A DNA stretch of 64,000 nucleotides from Eudoraea adriatica DSM 19308 (GTDB lineage: Bacteria; Bacteroidota; Bacteroidia; Flavobacteriales; Flavobacteriaceae), in the NCBI RefSeq assembly GCF_000382125.1, contig NZ_KB907547.1, positions 1-64,000 of the forward strand, given 5' to 3'. Of the stretch, positions 54,692-63,075 are shown piece after piece (position 1 is the stretch's first letter; each line of letters opens with the position of its first letter). The notes under the pieces were generated by a model. The model was not told where the DNA came from, searched no databases, and worked only from the letters and a program-made list of their open reading frames with translations. The position numbers were made by a program, and so were the translations under genes.

Positions 54692-57600
54692 ATGATTAAT
54701 ACCATTTTCAATATAATAAGTTCCGTAAATTACAGATTCTTTATTCTTCTTTTATTACTAGTACTTTTTCCTGTCAATACATTTTCGCAGACCAGCTCAC
54801 TGCAATTTACTGAAGAGGAGAAATCGTGGATTGAAGCAAACCCAGAAATAAATGTTGGGAATGATCAATACTGGCCTCCAATGGATTTTTATTCTGAAGG
54901 TCAAGCTATGGGATATAGTATCGACCTGATGAATCTAATAGCCAAGGAAATAGGAATAAAAATAAATTATGTTTCTGGTTTATCTTGGTCAGAGCTGTTA
55001 GAAGCCTTGAAAAGTGGAGAAATTACTGTTTTACCCGCTATTAGTAAGACAGATGAAAGAGAAACCTATATTAGATTCTCAGAACCTTATATAAAACTTC
55101 CTTATGTAAAAGTTATTCATAGTTCGAGTGACAATGACACTATTAGCAGTCTTGAAGGAAAAAATATAGCAGTTTTCAAGGGAACAAACATTGAAAATGC
55201 CCTGGCATCTAATGTCCCTAACGCTAATCTCGTATATATAAATTCTATTGAAGAAGCTCTCCAAAACGTTTCAACAGGAGAGGTAGATGTTTTGATTGAG
55301 GACCTGGCGGTCATAAATTATTATTTAGGTCAAAGTTACTTTCCAAATATCACATTGAATTCAGACGACTTAGAGTTTTTAGGTTCATCTGAGGTTTTTA
55401 TAGGGGTTTTAAAAGAGAATCGAGTTCTTGGTGACTTAATTGACAAGGGATTTGATGCGGTACCTAAAGAGGAACTGGATAGAATTCGTGCAAAATGGCT
55501 TGGAACAATTGAATATCCTACTGAAAAAGATGATTCCATCTCCTCCTATGAACTGTTGGAAATTCTAATATACAGTCTATTAGGGTTAATAATTTTAACT
55601 TTAGTAATTAGATTCGGCCTAAAGAAATTTTCAAATGAAAAAATATCCTTAGAATTTGGTTCCAGAAGATTTAGGATATTATCCGTTTTAGGAATGTTTA
55701 TTATCGTTCTTATTATATCCTTAATCGGATGGTGGGCGTTGGATTATAATAAAAAAAGAATACTTTCAAATCTTGAAATCAGTCTTGAAACAACTTTAAG
55801 TAATACACATGAGAGGTTAAATAGTTGGGCGGATCAGTACAGGATTCTTATTGAGCAACTTGGAAGAGATCCTGACCTGTTGAGTGAAACAGAAAAAATA
55901 CTAAAACTTCAAAATGATGATATCTTATCATCCCAGGCTTTGGCCGAATTGAAGTCTTTTTATGATAAACAATCGGGCAAACTTCAAAGCGTCGGGTTTT
56001 ATATTATAGACAAAAAATTTAATAATGTTGCTTCTTCAAGAAATAGCGACATTGGCATTGAGAATCTTATATATATCCAAAAACCGAATCTGATTAATAA
56101 GGTCTTCAATGGAAATACAGTTTTTATTCCACCTATTAAATCTGATGTAGTTTTAGACTCAACAAAGGTTGGCAACTCTTCGTCTAAGCCGCCAACTATG
56201 TTTTTTGTTACTCCAATAAAAAATAATTCAGAAGAAGTGTTGGCAGCATTAGCTATCAGGATTGATCCGGCGGCGGGGTTTTCTAGAGTACTGCAATTGT
56301 CGAGAATTGGTAAAACAGGTGAGTGTTATGCTTTTGATATTAGTGGAAGGCTTTTATCAGAGAGTAGATTTGACGATGATTTACGGAAGATTGGCTTAAT
56401 TCCAAAAGATGGAGAAGGTATCTTAAATATAGAAATTAGAGATCCTGGAGGCAACATGGTTACAGGATATCAGTCAAATATTCCCAGGGATCAACAACCT
56501 CTTACTCATATGGCTAAATCTGCAACCAAAGGTGGGTCGGAAACAAACATGAGCGGTTATAGAGATTACAGGGGTGTGTCTGTATATGGGGCTTGGTTAT
56601 GGGACGAAAAATTGGGATTAGGAATTACAGTTGAAATTGATGTTGAAGAAGGCTTGTCTACTTATAACACCATGTTTTATACCATATCCGGAGTTATAGG
56701 CATAGCTTTATTGCTTATGATATTTGCCATTTTGTTTACCCTCAATTTGGGTGAGTCGGCTAATAAAGCCCTTGTAAAAGCAAAAGATCAGTTAGAAGAT
56801 AAGGTGGATGAAAGAACCAAAGAGCTTTCTACTGCAAATAAACAAACCCAAGCTATTGTTGACAGTCTGGCCGATGCTTTGATCATCATCAATGAACTTG
56901 GAATTATTGTGTCATTTAGCCCATCAGCGGAAAAGATGTTTCAATACAAAAAAGAAGAAATAATAGGGCGAAATATCCAGGATTTAATGCCCTCACCTCA
57001 TAAGGAGGCCCACGATGGCTATTTAGAAAATTATAAAAGAACGGGCATAAGAAAAATAATAGGATTCGAGCGAGAAGTTAATGGTCTCCGAAAAGATGGC
57101 AGTATGTTTCCAGCCAGCCTCAAGGTTAGCGAAGTTCTCACTGAAAAGAATAGCCTTTATGTAGGGTTAATGAGTGATTTAACTGACCAAAAAAAATCAG
57201 AGTTAAGACTTAAATCACAATCAGCCGCTCTTAAATCGGCGGCAAACGGAGTTGTTATTACGAACATAACCGGTGAAATTGTATGGGTCAACCCTGCATT
57301 TTCCGAGTTAACCGGATATTCATGGAGAGAATTAGTTGGTAAAACACCGCGAATTATAAATTCTGGCAAACAGGACAAATCTTTTTTTAAGAATATGTGG
57401 GATACTATTATGGCAGGAGATACTTGGCAGGGTGAAATTATAAATAAGAAAAAAAATGGAAGCCTTTTTTACGAAGAGATGACAATCACACCAATAATTA
57501 ATGATAAAGGGGAAATCGATCAGTTTGTCGCTATTAAAAATGACATATCCGAACGCAAAAAAATGGAGGAAATTCTGATCAAAGCGAACGAACGAATGAG

Positions 57601-58768
57601 TGGAGAGCTAAATATTGCCAAAGAAATTCAAATGAGCATGTTGCCGTTAATATTCCCGGCCTTCCCTAAACGTAGTGAAATTGATATTTATGCCAATTTG
57701 ATTCCCGCCAGGGAAGTTGGGGGTGATTTTTATGATTTCCAATTCTTGGATGATAATCATATTTATTTCGTTGTTGGAGATGTATCGGGTAAAGGAGTCC
57801 CTGCTGCTTTAATGATGGCCGTCACAAAAACATTGTTGAAGTCCACTGCCGGCAATGATAAATCTACAGCAAGTATTTTGACACATGTCAATAATGAAAT
57901 TGCAAAAGACAATGATGCCTATATGTTTATCACCATATTCATTGCAATATTAAATACATCAACAGGAGAAATGGTGTATTCCAATGCAGGTCATAACCCC
58001 TCTTTTATCGTTAAGTCCGACAAAGAAATCATTAAGTTAGGAGAATTACATGGTCCGGTAGTTGGAGCTATGGAAGATATGACCTACACCGAAACAAAAG
58101 TAACTATTGACAAAAACGATATGGTTTTCGCCTATACAGATGGTGTTACTGAGGCTCAGAACCTAAAGGAAGAATTGTATTCCGATCCACGCTTAATTGA
58201 TTTGTTGAAAAACGGTGAATACAAAGACCCCACAACTTTGATTAATCTTGTTGAAGATAGCGTTTTTGAATTTCAAGGTAAAGCTGAGCAATTTGATGAC
58301 ATAACCGCACTATCTTTACAATATTTGGGTGATAAGGAATACGTGATGAAAAACTCTTTTTCAGCAACAATCAAAAATCAATTGAACCAAATGCCTCAGG
58401 TTATTGAGGCATTTGAAGTGTTTGGAGAGAAGAATGAATTGTCGTTTGGTATAATTCAAAAGTTCAATATTGCCTTAGATGAATTACTGAACAATATAAT
58501 AAGTTACGGTTTTCAGGATGATTCGGAGCATGAAATCCTAGTTGACGTGGAATTAAGGAATGAACGACTGATTATTACATTTACAGATGATGGCGTTCCT
58601 TTTAACCCTTTTAGAAATGACCCCCCCGATACAAAACTTTCAATTGATGAACGCAATATTGGCGGACTGGGAATACATATAGTCAAAAATTTAGTTGATG
58701 AATATGCTTATAGGCGTCATGCCGATAAAAATATCATCACCTTAGTGAAGTATAACATAAACAAATAG
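54692..58768 (+). CDS. Giant membrane receptor: solute-binding, Cache-like, PAS-PAS, PP2C and GHKL domains
   Basis: 1358 residues. Signal peptide or first helix (about 12-32); periplasmic solute-binding domain of the SBP_bac_3 type (about 35-270, from EEKSWIEANPEINVGNDQYW); helix (about 288-306); helix (about 330-350); extracytoplasmic Cache-like sensor (about 355-655); helix (about 664-688); coiled coil; two PAS domains (about 720-830 and 845-955); SpoIIE/RsbU-type PP2C phosphatase (about 975-1215; VGGDFYDF, GDVSGKGVPAAL, YTDGVTEA, DDITALS all intact); and a GHKL kinase domain (about 1225-1355; DELLNNII, DDGVPFNP, GGLGIHIVKNL). It is both phosphatase and kinase for STAS proteins. The next gene encodes such a protein 4 nt away. 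Confidence 0.9.
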   Translation: MINTIFNIISSVNYRFFILLLLLVLFPVNTFSQTSSLQFTEEEKSWIEANPEINVGNDQYWPPMDFYSEGQAMGYSIDLMNLIAKEIGIKINYVSGLSWSELLEALKSGEITVLPAISKTDERETYIRFSEPYIKLPYVKVIHSSSDNDTISSLEGKNIAVFKGTNIENALASNVPNANLVYINSIEEALQNVSTGEVDVLIEDLAVINYYLGQSYFPNITLNSDDLEFLGSSEVFIGVLKENRVLGDLIDKGFDAVPKEELDRIRAKWLGTIEYPTEKDDSISSYELLEILIYSLLGLIILTLVIRFGLKKFSNEKISLEFGSRRFRILSVLGMFIIVLIISLIGWWALDYNKKRILSNLEISLETTLSNTHERLNSWADQYRILIEQLGRDPDLLSETEKILKLQNDDILSSQALAELKSFYDKQSGKLQSVGFYIIDKKFNNVASSRNSDIGIENLIYIQKPNLINKVFNGNTVFIPPIKSDVVLDSTKVGNSSSKPPTMFFVTPIKNNSEEVLAALAIRIDPAAGFSRVLQLSRIGKTGECYAFDISGRLLSESRFDDDLRKIGLIPKDGEGILNIEIRDPGGNMVTGYQSNIPRDQQPLTHMAKSATKGGSETNMSGYRDYRGVSVYGAWLWDEKLGLGITVEIDVEEGLSTYNTMFYTISGVIGIALLLMIFAILFTLNLGESANKALVKAKDQLEDKVDERTKELSTANKQTQAIVDSLADALIIINELGIIVSFSPSAEKMFQYKKEEIIGRNIQDLMPSPHKEAHDGYLENYKRTGIRKIIGFEREVNGLRKDGSMFPASLKVSEVLTEKNSLYVGLMSDLTDQKKSELRLKSQSAALKSAANGVVITNITGEIVWVNPAFSELTGYSWRELVGKTPRIINSGKQDKSFFKNMWDTIMAGDTWQGEIINKKKNGSLFYEEMTITPIINDKGEIDQFVAIKNDISERKKMEEILIKANERMSGELNIAKEIQMSMLPLIFPAFPKRSEIDIYANLIPAREVGGDFYDFQFLDDNHIYFVVGDVSGKGVPAALMMAVTKTLLKSTAGNDKSTASILTHVNNEIAKDNDAYMFITIFIAILNTSTGEMVYSNAGHNPSFIVKSDKEIIKLGELHGPVVGAMEDMTYTETKVTIDKNDMVFAYTDGVTEAQNLKEELYSDPRLIDLLKNGEYKDPTTLINLVEDSVFEFQGKAEQFDDITALSLQYLGDKEYVMKNSFSATIKNQLNQMPQVIEAFEVFGEKNELSFGIIQKFNIALDELLNNIISYGFQDDSEHEILVDVELRNERLIITFTDDGVPFNPFRNDPPDTKLSIDERNIGGLGIHIVKNLVDEYAYRRHADKNIITLVKYNINK

Positions 58769-58772
58769 AATT

Positions 58773-59111
58773 ATGGCATTAGAAGTACTATCAAAAGAGA
58801 TCAATGACGTGATTGTTGTCGATTTAAAAGGAAATCTCGATACGAATACAGCTCCGGATGCTGAGACTTGTATAAACGATTATTTGGAGTCAGGAACAAA
58901 AAAAATCATCATTAATCTTGGGCAAACGCAATATGTCAGTAGTGCCGGGTTAAGGGTTTTCCTCGCTACAGCGAAGAAATTAACGGCTAGTGGAGGGGCC
59001 TTGAAACTATGTGGCGCCAATGAGGTTGTACAGGAAATACTGGACATATCAGGTTTCAGTACCATATTGGATATAAAAGAAACAGAGGAAGAGGCCTTAA
59101 GTGCTTTATAA
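58773..59111 (+). CDS. STAS-domain anti-anti-sigma factor-like protein (RsbV type)
   Basis: 112 residues, one STAS domain. The phosphorylation loop reads YVSSAGLRVF with Ser57 in the phosphoacceptor position. The early GNLDTNTAP motif is also typical of RsbV/SpoIIAA. In Bacillus such a protein, when unphosphorylated, binds and disarms an anti-sigma kinase. Its partner here may be the GHKL domain of the receptor just upstream or the one in the gene at 61459. No sigma factor is seen in the window. Confidence 0.9.
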   Translation: MALEVLSKEINDVIVVDLKGNLDTNTAPDAETCINDYLESGTKKIIINLGQTQYVSSAGLRVFLATAKKLTASGGALKLCGANEVVQEILDISGFSTILDIKETEEEALSAL

Positions 59112-59227
59112 AAAAGTACTTTGAGAAATAAATACTTAATTGAGATCTGAACTTGAAACTAAAGGTCATGAGGTTACTATATATTTCGAAGTAATAAGAA
59201 GTAAGGGAAAAACTTAAATAGGAAATA

Positions 59228-60103
59228 ATGAAAAAAAGTATATCGGAAATTAAAGAACTTTATGGGGTGACTGATAAGGATGTTGCTCCTCTTTTGAAAA
59301 TGAAAGAACCTGCTAAAAAGCAGATGGATAAAATTGTTGACAAATGGTATGAGTGGCTAAAAAAGCATCCTGAATTTGAAGAGTTTTTTGATGATGAAGA
59401 CAATTGGAAACGAGTTATAGCTCTGCAAAAGAAATTTTGGCATCGCTTTTTTGAAGCAAGATTTGATGATGACTATTTAAGCGAAAGAGTAAGGGTTGGA
59501 CAAGTTCATGCTCGAATTGGCCTCCCACAAGATATCTATTTAGCCGGGGTTGATAAATTCCTGGAATTATTTGTTGGAATGCTGGATGGCATGAAACTTA
59601 ATCAGAAAGATTACAGGGACTGTAGAAGAGCTTTAAATAAAATGGCCCACATGGACATGATGATCATTGTTCAGAGCTATGAAGAAATTATAAACTCTAA
59701 GATTGCTGCACAGACAAAGTCTCTCATGGAGATGTCCACTCCAGTAACGCAACTTTGGACAGGTTTGCTTTTTCTACCTGTTGTTGGTTTGATAGATTCA
59801 AAGCGAGCCCAGGATATCATGAATAATTCATTGCACAAAATTTCTGATACCAATTCACAATGTTTTATTTTGGATATTTCGGGCGTAAGCGTTGTAGATA
59901 CAGCCGTTGCGAATCACTTAATAAAAATCACCAAAGCGACCCGTTTAATGGGTTGCGAATCAATTATTTCTGGAGTTTCTCCATCTATCGCTCAAACAAT
60001 TGTTGAATTGGGAATTGACATAGGTGATATTAGGACCACTTCTGATATGAAAGGGGCATTAGAGAGTGCATTTAGAATTATTGGTATGGATATCTCTGGT
60101 TAA
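59228..60103 (+). CDS. Globin-coupled RsbR-like stressosome sensor
   Basis: 291 residues. Residues about 5-160 form a protoglobin-type domain with GQVHARIGLPQDIYLAG, giving a proximal heme ligand at His94, and W40/Y41 near the distal side. Residues about 170-288 are a STAS domain of RsbR type. It keeps both threonines phosphorylated by RsbT in Bacillus RsbR: Thr225 in SVVDTAVAN and Thr257 in SIAQTIVELG. RsbR proteins with heme globin domains act as oxygen or redox sensors in Vibrio-type stressosomes. It is followed 12 nt later by rsbS. Heme binding is inferred from the motif. Confidence 0.9.
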   Translation: MKKSISEIKELYGVTDKDVAPLLKMKEPAKKQMDKIVDKWYEWLKKHPEFEEFFDDEDNWKRVIALQKKFWHRFFEARFDDDYLSERVRVGQVHARIGLPQDIYLAGVDKFLELFVGMLDGMKLNQKDYRDCRRALNKMAHMDMMIIVQSYEEIINSKIAAQTKSLMEMSTPVTQLWTGLLFLPVVGLIDSKRAQDIMNNSLHKISDTNSQCFILDISGVSVVDTAVANHLIKITKATRLMGCESIISGVSPSIAQTIVELGIDIGDIRTTSDMKGALESAFRIIGMDISG

Positions 60104-60115
60104 TCTCATAGAATT

Positions 60116-60481
60116 TTGCAGACAGAGGGAGTAGTAATACAAATACAAAGCGATTGCGTGCTAGCTAGCGTCCAAATGGATTTGGATAGTCAGTTTTTGG
60201 ACAATCTCAAAAGGGATCTGCTTAATTTTTGCTTTAATAATAAATCTATAAGGGGTGTTATTCTCGATTTATCGGGGGTTAGAATAATCGATGCTGATGA
60301 TTTTGAAGGGATTAAAAAAATAATTTACTCAATTAAACTAATGGGCTATCCCTGTGTTTTGTCTGGATTGGGAGCGCCAATTGTTTCATCTTTGGCAATA
60401 TTAGGAACTAATTTTAAGGGGATAAAGGCGTATAATAGTCTGGATCAAGCACTTGCATCATTCGAATCAATATACAAATGA
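60116..60481 (+). CDS. RsbS-like STAS stressosome scaffold protein
   Basis: 121 residues, single STAS domain, in the fixed rsbR-rsbS-rsbT order. The start is a TTG at 60116, as no in-frame ATG lies before codon 21. The loop that holds the phosphorylated Ser in Bacillus RsbS reads IIDADDFEG here, so Ala60 replaces that Ser. The second helix is normal (LMGYPCVLSGLGAPIVSSLA). RsbS forms the stressosome core and holds RsbT. The missing Ser would change how RsbT is released. The stop overlaps rsbT (ATGA). Confidence 0.85.
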   Translation: MQTEGVVIQIQSDCVLASVQMDLDSQFLDNLKRDLLNFCFNNKSIRGVILDLSGVRIIDADDFEGIKKIIYSIKLMGYPCVLSGLGAPIVSSLAILGTNFKGIKAYNSLDQALASFESIYK

Positions 60482-60876
60482 GTCGGTTAAGGCATTTAAT
60501 TACGAACGAATTAGATATCCATTTCATGAAAAGTGAAGTGGATGAACTTTTTAATTCTTATAATTTGACCGATTCCTATCGAATGAAGGTTAATACTGTG
60601 TTATCAGAATTAGCTTATAATCAGCTCAAATACGCCAAAAAAGGTAGTATAGAAACGAGTTTCTTTAAACAGGCAAGTCAATTGGGAATTAAAATAAAGG
60701 CTGCTGATAAAGGACCAGGTATACCGGATATTGATCTTGCACTTAGAGATAATTATTCTACAAGTGGTACATTAGGGTTAGGATTGCCGGGAGTCAAAAG
60801 ATTGGTGGATGAATTTGTAATTAAATCAGTAGTAAATCAAGGAACAACCTTGGAGGTTATTATTTGGATAAAATGA
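60478..60876 (+). CDS. RsbT-like serine/threonine kinase
   Basis: 132 residues, GHKL-type ATP-binding fold. The N box has SELAYNQLKYA (Asn48), the G1 box ADKGPGIPD and the G2 box GTLGLGLPGVKRLVDEF, all as in RsbT. It would phosphorylate RsbR and RsbS and then switch to activate a phosphatase with a PP2C domain, such as those at 54692 or 61459. It overlaps both neighbours by 4 nt, so the three proteins are co-translated. Confidence 0.92.
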   Translation: MSRLRHLITNELDIHFMKSEVDELFNSYNLTDSYRMKVNTVLSELAYNQLKYAKKGSIETSFFKQASQLGIKIKAADKGPGIPDIDLALRDNYSTSGTLGLGLPGVKRLVDEFVIKSVVNQGTTLEVIIWIK

Positions 60877-61457
60877 ACGAAATAGAAAAATCCCAATTTA
60901 ACAGGCCGTTTCTTGGTGAGAGAGTTTCAGGGGACCTCCCCTTTTTTCACGATGACGATTCTTTTAGTTATGCCGTGTTAATAGACGGTATAGGACACGG
61001 AGATTCGGCACATTTGATGGCAGAGTCCATTGGTCAAGAACTTATACACTATTGGTCTCCCAATCCTTCTAGAATGATAACCTATTTAAATGATCGTCTT
61101 TCAAAAAACATAGGTGCAGCAATAGGAGTACTTGTAATTAATAAAAATACTATGAAGTTTTTCTACTCGGGACTTGGAAATATACGCTGTAAAATTATTG
61201 GTAATGAAAGTACTACAAACTTAACCTCCACCGATGGAATTTTAGGAATGAGGTATCGCTCCACTAAAAATCACGAGGGTATATTAAGACCTGGAGATCT
61301 GGTAGTATTGTGCTCAGATGGAATCAGTAAATTGGATGAAATCGAAAATTGGAATAGGTTTAAAGCATTGAAAAGTTCTACTATAGCTAGACGAATTGTG
61401 AATAAGTACGGTACGGACTTAGATGATTCATCGTGCATAGCAATCAAGATAAATTAA
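60873..61457 (+). CDS. RsbX-like PP2C phosphatase
   Basis: 194 residues from the ATG at 60873, which overlaps the rsbT stop; an earlier TTG at 60864 is possible. A compact PP2C domain with metal-binding aspartates in AVLIDGIGHGDSA, VLCSDGISKLDE and LDDSSCIAIK. RsbX resets the stressosome by removing phosphates from RsbR and RsbS. With RsbS lacking its Ser, RsbR may be the only substrate. It ends 1 nt before the next gene. Confidence 0.88.
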   Translation: MNEIEKSQFNRPFLGERVSGDLPFFHDDDSFSYAVLIDGIGHGDSAHLMAESIGQELIHYWSPNPSRMITYLNDRLSKNIGAAIGVLVINKNTMKFFYSGLGNIRCKIIGNESTTNLTSTDGILGMRYRSTKNHEGILRPGDLVVLCSDGISKLDEIENWNRFKALKSSTIARRIVNKYGTDLDDSSCIAIKIN

Positions 61458-61458
61458 A

Positions 61459-63075
61459 GTGATAATACTTTTTAAAAAAATATTGTCTACCGAGAAGGAT
61501 ATTACTTCATTAAGAAACAAGTTAAATGATGCTTTAATTATTTTAACGGACGATGAAATGTTTTCGACTCAAAAAGCAAGTACCTTATCGAGTGCACTGA
61601 AAAGAAGACTTAACGCTCATGCAGAGATATTATGCTCTATTTCTATAGGAACGAACGACACATTTCAAAATCGCTTGGAAATCGATTCCTTTCGCATTGA
61701 GCCTGCCTCTGGATCTAATGAAAAAACCTATACTTTGATAGATAAAACATCATTTGTCCATGCATTTGCCGTCAACGAGATAGAAAGTGCAAAGAAGGTT
61801 TTTGACGTCAAAACTGTCAACGAATTATTAATTGATATTCAACTTAAAAATACTGAACTAGAGCGGTCGCTTAAAAACTTACGAATAGCAAAGGATCAGA
61901 ATGCTAGAATGGAGAGTGAATTGGAAGTAGGTCAATCCATTCAAATGAGCATGTTGCCAAAAGAAAAATACCAAAGTGACAGTATTAATCTTTATGCAAA
62001 ACTGATTCCTGCGAGAGAGGTGGGAGGAGATTTTTATGATTTCTTTGAAGTAGATTCCGGGCGTTTAGGAATGGTGATGGGAGACGTTTCTGGAAAAGGG
62101 GTTCCTGCAGCATTGATGATGGCCGTTACTAAAACCTTATTAAAATCGAGAGCCGTTAATGATAAGTCAACAGCAAGTATACTCACTCATGTGAACAATG
62201 AAATTGCAAAGGAAAATGATGCCTATATGTTCATAACGGTTTTTATGGCAATACTTGATATCAATACAGGTGAACTCACCTACTCAAATGCCGGTCATAA
62301 CCCGTCCTATATAATTAATAAAGAAAGTAGAAAGATCAAAAAGTTGAGTGATCTTCATGGTCCTGTTGTAGGGGCTATGGAAGGTATGGCCTATGGTGAA
62401 ACAAAATTATCCTTGAAAAAAAACGATATTGTATTTTCCTATACCGATGGGGTCACAGAATCACATAATAGTGATGCGGAGTTATATTCCGATCCAAGGT
62501 TGGAAGAATTACTTAAAAGCGGAGAATACGATTCCACTAAAACACTTACGGACCTTGTAATTAGCAGTGTAAAAGAATTTGAGGGCGATGCAGATCAATT
62601 CGATGATATTACTGTTATGTCTATTGAGTATTGTCAAAGCCCCACTCTCACTTCAAGTATAGTATCATCTATAAATATTACAAACGACCTAAAGCAGATT
62701 GCGCAAGCCATAGAGTGGTATGAAGCATTCGCATTGGAAAACAAAATACCTTTCGCTGTAATTCAAAAAATCAATATAGTTCTTGATGAATTATTGAACA
62801 ATATTATTTCATACGGTTACAATGATGAAGAAGAACATGAAATTGAAATTGAAGTACAACTCATAAAAAATCGACTAATTCTTATTATAAGTGATGATGG
62901 AATACCATTTAATCCATTTAAAAATGAAGCTGTAGATGTTAGTCGTTCCATAGAGGAGAGAGAGATAGGCGGTTTGGGGGTTCATCTGGTTAAAACACTA
63001 ATGGACGATTACGAATATAATAGACTAGTAGACAAGAACATTATAACTTTAATTAAACAAGATATTTCTGCATAA
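61459..63075 (+). CDS. RsbU-like PP2C phosphatase fused to a GHKL kinase
   Basis: 538 residues from a GTG at 61459 that directly follows the rsbX stop. Residues 1-120 have no domain I recognise, about 120-160 form a coiled coil, about 160-390 a SpoIIE/RsbU PP2C domain (VGGDFYDF, GDVSGKGVPAAL, YTDGVTES, DDITVMS) and about 400-535 a GHKL kinase (DELLNNII, DDGIPFNP, GGLGVHLVKTLMDD). The catalytic half is strikingly like the end of the 1358-residue receptor (shared NDKSTASILTHVNNEIAK), so they are duplicates. RsbT may activate it through the coiled-coil part. Confidence 0.88.
   Translation: MIILFKKILSTEKDITSLRNKLNDALIILTDDEMFSTQKASTLSSALKRRLNAHAEILCSISIGTNDTFQNRLEIDSFRIEPASGSNEKTYTLIDKTSFVHAFAVNEIESAKKVFDVKTVNELLIDIQLKNTELERSLKNLRIAKDQNARMESELEVGQSIQMSMLPKEKYQSDSINLYAKLIPAREVGGDFYDFFEVDSGRLGMVMGDVSGKGVPAALMMAVTKTLLKSRAVNDKSTASILTHVNNEIAKENDAYMFITVFMAILDINTGELTYSNAGHNPSYIINKESRKIKKLSDLHGPVVGAMEGMAYGETKLSLKKNDIVFSYTDGVTESHNSDAELYSDPRLEELLKSGEYDSTKTLTDLVISSVKEFEGDADQFDDITVMSIEYCQSPTLTSSIVSSINITNDLKQIAQAIEWYEAFALENKIPFAVIQKINIVLDELLNNIISYGYNDEEEHEIEIEVQLIKNRLILIISDDGIPFNPFKNEAVDVSRSIEEREIGGLGVHLVKTLMDDYEYNRLVDKNIITLIKQDISA

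Follow-up and report, generated by a model that had tools for sequence, protein, structure and literature searches.

The window analysed here is a stretch of 64,000 nucleotides of DNA from the bacterium Eudoraea adriatica DSM 19308. It contains five genes that are tightly packed on one strand (+). The first, rsbR (59228..60103), encodes a protoglobin sensor followed by a linker and a STAS domain (PF11563, 111.8 bits; 301 bits to V. vulnificus 7o0i_B). It is followed by rsbS (60116..60481), which encodes a STAS-only protein of 121 residues, and by rsbT (60478..60876), which overlaps rsbS by 4 bases and encodes a HATPase serine/threonine kinase with intact N, G1 and G2 motifs. The fourth gene is rsbX-like (60864..61457); its product is a single-domain PP2C phosphatase of the SpoIIE family with intact metal-binding Asp residues. 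The fifth encodes a SpoIIE-type PP2C phosphatase fused to an RsbW-like HATPase (61459..63075), the probable output. No RsbU_N-like domain was found by Pfam at the start of this last protein, and the stressosome operon has no sigB gene. The gene after rsbX is likewise a PP2C-HATPase fusion in Flammeovirga and Saprospira and in two MAGs, one from Ignavibacteria and one from Bacteroidetes.

Two further genes on the same strand lie 5' of rsbR. One encodes an RsbV-like STAS anti-sigma-factor antagonist (58773..59111), in which the motif YVSSAG keeps its Ser. The other encodes a sensor with SBP_bac_3, dCache-like and two PAS domains fused to a SpoIIE PP2C phosphatase and a HATPase (54692..58768). 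The RsbV-like gene stands between two separate PP2C-HATPase fusions (54692-63075), of which the first has a periplasmic/PAS sensor of its own and the second follows the stressosome genes. This suggests that two inputs converge on one STAS protein, the sensor fusion being a possible second input.

Judged from its genes, the locus is a globin-type rsbR-rsbS-rsbT-rsbX stressosome of the Vibrio kind. The protoglobin of RsbR carries a proximal His (His94, invariant in 82/82 globin RsbR), and the rsbX phosphatase gene lies directly 3' of rsbT. The same gene layout, with a globin RsbR, is known from Vibrio, and Heinz et al. 2022 (PMC9237108) list it for Bacteroidetes, Cyanobacteria and others. By its sequence, the window's stressosome is probably oxygen-sensing, with control by haem and O2 predicted.

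The product of rsbS has the features expected of the family: a single STAS domain, a length within the range of about 115-125 residues, and a gene placed between rsbR and rsbT. Its best matches among solved structures are the RsbS proteins of V. vulnificus, B. subtilis, Listeria and Moorella. An AF2 model, built from an alignment of 54 sequences with two plasmid rows left out, has a mean pLDDT of 95.5. The structures closest to it by Foldseek are B. subtilis and Moorella RsbS (TM 0.82-0.86 to 6jhk). The frame at 60116-60481 contains DLSGVRIIDADDFEGIKK. It is listed with a TTG start at 60116 that has no clear ribosome site, and there is no in-frame ATG upstream of codon 21 (60104-60176 region). 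The sequence GAGGGAG at about 60125-60131 stands ahead of GTA/ATA codons. The true start is therefore unsure and may be a rare start codon.

Within this frame, positions 60290-60301 encode DADD, that is, Asp59-Ala60-Asp61-Asp62. The original prediction placed Ala60, after a conserved Asp, at the position of B. subtilis Ser59, and both the translation and the alignments bear this out. The codon GCT at 60293..60295 (+) corresponds to Ser59 of B. subtilis RsbS and Ser56 of Listeria RsbS. In HMMER alignments, IIDADD aligns without a gap to IDSF of B. subtilis RsbS (6jhk), IDSF of Listeria RsbS (6qcm), IDAF of an engineered Listeria variant (9o4r) and LDGE of V. vulnificus RsbS (7o0i_a), which has Gly in the Ala60 column. 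Apart from its Ala, the 9o4r chain agrees with Listeria RsbS; it is presumably the S56A construct reported in PMC12154155. Helix 2 of the model begins at residue 60, so the place where a Bacillus-type switch has its phosphorylatable Ser, at the start of helix 2, is taken by Ala. An error of frame or alignment is ruled out by the confident model and by alignments that run without gaps against several solved RsbS. A Ser or Thr shifted within the loop can also be set aside: there is none in residues 54-71 of this protein, and residues 60-62 include one in just 17/81 RsbS of the class described below.

The acceptor residues of RsbR are present. B. subtilis Thr171 (IDT) and Thr205 (VVDT) were placed by alignment, and in the STAS domain of the window's RsbR they correspond to Ser191 (IDS) and Thr225 (VVDT). 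The claim that RsbR keeps both its Thr residues thus holds for the Thr205 equivalent; at the Thr171 position the residue is Ser, which is still phosphorylatable. The reported acceptors of V. vulnificus RsbR are Ser199 and Thr233 (Heinz et al., PMC9237108), and these match IDS and VVDT of 7o0i_B in the alignment. Thr257 of the window's RsbR is the equivalent of Listeria Thr241, a residue that faces Thr209 (PMC9237128).

A scan of genome contigs with RsbS alone as the query gave no matches because the RsbS sequence diverges too fast. Relatives were therefore sought through RsbR, and RsbS was taken from beside it at each of the 80 loci fetched. Two loci, L033 and L087, were left out because the presumed RsbS match was RsbR. 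The usable set, which includes the window and two plasmid loci, consists of 81 RsbS, each adjoining a globin-RsbR. The residues at the Ser59 position are L26, A13, R12, V6, I4, S4, P4, M2, T2, K2 and six singletons. Ser or Thr is found in 6/81. This share (7.4%) is below the 15.6% mean of variable RsbS columns, and the column's entropy of 3.14 bits exceeds the median of 2.16. The other globin-class Bacteroidota RsbS (six from Flammeovirga, two from Saprospira, one from a MAG) have I, L or A at the site. The rarity implied by the original prediction did not hold up: lack of Ser is normal for the globin class (75/81), which spans about a dozen phyla. Going by record titles, these are Bacteroidota, Ignavibacteria, Acidobacteriota, Pseudomonadota, Planctomycetota, Gemmatimonadota, Desulfobacterota, Cyanobacteria, Nitrospirota, Myxococcota, Eremiobacterota, Lentisphaerota and Deinococcota. 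The window's rsbS is an ordinary member of the class, and its Ala is not special to E. adriatica.

The partners of RsbS are conserved. Ser occupies the Ser191 position and Thr the Thr257 position in 83/83 globin RsbR. At the Thr225 position there are 77 Thr and 6 Ser among the 83, a count biased by the retrieval patterns, which included the Thr225 motif VVDTAVAN for all 80 comparison loci; Ser191 and Thr257 lie outside the patterns. The Glu, Asn, Asp and Gly motif residues of RsbT are kept in 80/80 globin modules, and the metal-site Asp of RsbX in 71-72/72. Since the RsbR acceptors, RsbT and RsbX are conserved and the RsbS site is variable, the acceptor pair is conserved in RsbR but can drift in RsbS, with kinase and phosphatase remaining constrained.

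Some modules of the class show peculiarities of their own. In Saprospira grandis DSM 2844, rsbT is cut by what looks like an insertion, with a 79-residue remainder about 1.1 kb 3' of rsbS (L089 7877-9565); in strain Lewin it is intact (L086 8230-8631). The rsbR of a Planctomycetaceae MAG (L049 6911-7882) consists of two open frames split between globin and STAS, either a real break or a sequencing error. Many globin modules have an extra protein of 600-660 residues with an RsbR-like region, encoded directly 5' of rsbR (L013 2185-4137, L019 39-1910, L024 388-2361, L026 5014-6936, L030 5495-7375, L046 4164-6125); the window has none.

Modules without a globin RsbR provide the contrast. Thirteen of them were found through RsbR and hence were not selected on RsbS: seven are from Bacteroidota and six are on plasmids (Streptomyces, Deinococcus, Alloyangia, Xanthomonas, Caballeronia and Nonomuraea). 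Their RsbS site is Ser in 12 and Thr in one. Six more from Bacteroidota, found with a Ser-type RsbS query, all have Ser, so that Ser or Thr is kept in 19/19 non-globin modules. Fisher's exact test of 6/81 against 19/19 gives 1e-15, for sequences that are related. Loss of Ser as a trait of Bacteroidota is ruled out by these non-globin Bacteroidota RsbS, and four of the genomes belong to the window's own family.

A tree was built from RsbR-STAS, RsbS and RsbT after the two trait columns had been taken out, and it has no outside root. One branch with 100% SH-aLRT support parts the globin from the non-globin class. The window lies inside the globin class, together with Vibrio and other globin modules, and is placed with Flammeovirga and MAG M3007. 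The presence of Ser thus tracks module class and not phylum. Globin-class RsbS may have lost the Ser59 switch or may never have depended on it, the tree being unrooted. In a sample of 395 genomes from the phylum, a globin-type RsbR was found in the window's genome only (E <= 1e-30), and RsbS was found in 0/59 relatives, nine of them of the same genus. With this patchy distribution, the module was possibly gained by transfer.

The closest known systems can be compared with the window in turn. Flammeovirga spp. (L011, L014-L017, L034) are nearest in the tree and share the rsbRSTX and PP2C-HATPase order, although their RsbS proteins are about 40% identical and have Ile or Leu where the window has Ala. 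Vibrio vulnificus and V. brasiliensis share the rsbRSTX order, the haem-globin RsbR, rsbX beside rsbT, the lack of sigB and an RsbS that lacks the Ser: V. vulnificus has Gly, and the site is reported as not conserved in V. brasiliensis. Identity between the RsbS proteins is, however, about 25%, and the Vibrio output is a two-component, c-di-GMP or CheY-type module instead of a PP2C-HATPase fusion. B. subtilis and Listeria have the same STAS scaffold fold, RsbT kinase motifs and RsbR acceptors at the Thr171/Thr205 positions. The Bacillus RsbS has Ser59 and a Thr at Listeria position 88, whereas the window has Ala60 and Ser94, and the Bacillus RsbR has a non-haem globin fold and acts in a sigB cascade, unlike the window's haem-type globin. 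Finally, the non-globin RST modules of Bacteroidota (L004-L010, L106-L111) come from the same phylum, some from the same family, and keep the RsbR-RsbS-RsbT order, but have Ser in 13/13 RsbS and an RsbR N-terminus without a match to the haem-globin domain.

It seems rather probable that RsbS serves here as a scaffold and a sink for RsbT instead of a phospho-switch, that release follows a conformational change in RsbR, and that RsbR is the substrate of kinase and phosphatase. RsbS would be the STAS scaffold and binding partner of RsbT. A change of haem ligand in the RsbR globin would be passed down the linker and shift the RsbR-RsbS core, and this shift alone would loosen RsbT. The kinase would phosphorylate Ser191 and Thr225 of RsbR, priming or limiting the response; RsbX would strip these phosphates; and free RsbT would act on the downstream PP2C-HATPase output. 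The scarcity of Ser and Thr at the RsbS site, below the mean of variable columns, speaks for this reading, as do the constraint on the RsbR acceptors, RsbT and RsbX and the retention of Ser/Thr in the class across the fully supported branch. On the other side, the retrieval patterns favour finding Thr225 conserved. That RsbT is released through RsbR, as originally predicted, fits the 83 globin modules, with their invariant RsbR acceptors and drifting RsbS site.

Published experiments bear on the same point. The S59A mutant of B. subtilis loses the mild ethanol response but retains about 60% of the strong one, and signalling persists in T171A+S59A (PMC3944199). Gaidenko and Price (2014) suggested that phosphorylation of Ser59 may have been added in evolution to a basic mechanism that works by conformation (PMC3944199). 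The predicted hold on RsbT until a strong signal arrives resembles this dose response, although that is the response of an engineered mutant from a different class. The haem ligand of the V. brasiliensis globin RsbR governs RsbT activity (PMC4976288). The phosphate-free route is not universal: Listeria loses its acid response with S56A (PMC8942246), and phosphorylation of S56 has been proposed to release RsbT (PMC12154155).

The main rival is that the switch has moved, with RsbT phosphorylating a different Ser or Thr of RsbS close to the same pocket, for instance Ser94 or Ser53; we regard it as unlikely, though still a serious candidate. It finds support in V. brasiliensis, where the B. subtilis phosphorylation sites of RsbS are not conserved (Jia et al. 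2016, PMC4976288). There, RsbT with Fe(II) RsbR weakly thiophosphorylates RsbS in vitro at a non-Bacillus site (PMC4976288), so that some RsbS phosphorylation may matter. Ser94 occupies the Listeria Thr88 position, which faces Ser56 and is the counterpart of RsbR Thr241, a residue seen phosphorylated in L. innocua (PMC9237128). Ser is found there in 8/8 rows of the window's clade, but the Flammeovirga rows among them are closely related, and across the class the position is Ser or Thr in just 31/81. Ser53, in the conserved DLSG, is Ser or Thr in 79/81, yet it is so also in Ser59-bearing RsbS and looks structural. The few Ser/Thr at residues 60-62 offer little room for a nearby replacement, and B. 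subtilis RsbS S59A showed no second phosphorylation site (PMC3944199).

Less likely than a moved switch, and quite improbable, is that the acidic residues after the missing Ser (Asp61, Asp62) act as a permanent partial phosphate mimic, which would keep RsbT binding weak and leave the decision to RsbR alone. Asp or Glu is found at +3 from the conserved Asp in 69/81 and at +2 in 38/81, where Ser-type RsbS has Phe and Ile/Met/Val instead, and S59D weakens RsbT binding in B. subtilis (PMC3944199, PMC8942246). However, Asp59-x-x-Asp62 forms a plain helix-capping box where helix 2 begins, which is a simpler reason for the acidic residue, and pull-downs show V. brasiliensis RsbS binding RsbT in the absence of RsbR (PMC4976288). 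Least likely of all is the earlier reading of an unusual private substitution that keeps RsbT locked to the stressosome until the signal is strong, or of a decaying module: engineered S59A and S56A do dampen or block the response in Bacillus and Listeria (PMC3944199, PMC8942246), but neither private change nor decay fits a residue lacking throughout the class and a module whose other genes and motifs are all intact.

The class-wide pattern of a missing Ser is moderately interesting and partly published already. No paper tabulating the RsbS site residue across the globin class was found in the literature searched, older RST-module papers lying outside that search.

In most stressosome models, phosphorylation of RsbS at Ser59/Ser56 is the step that frees RsbT. 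The globin class probably switches without the Ser59 phosphate. The chances are about even that in this whole phylum-spanning class RsbS is never phosphorylated at the canonical switch, the signal being carried by RsbR conformation and RsbR phosphorylation alone. If true, phosphorylation of RsbS would not be part of the basic stressosome mechanism, and the class would give natural support to the S59-independent mechanism that Gaidenko and Price inferred from B. subtilis mutants. For the genome of E. adriatica alone, the finding of Ala60 is ordinary. A large natural class in which kinase, phosphatase and RsbR acceptors persist without Ser59 is a ready-made system in which to probe the release step.
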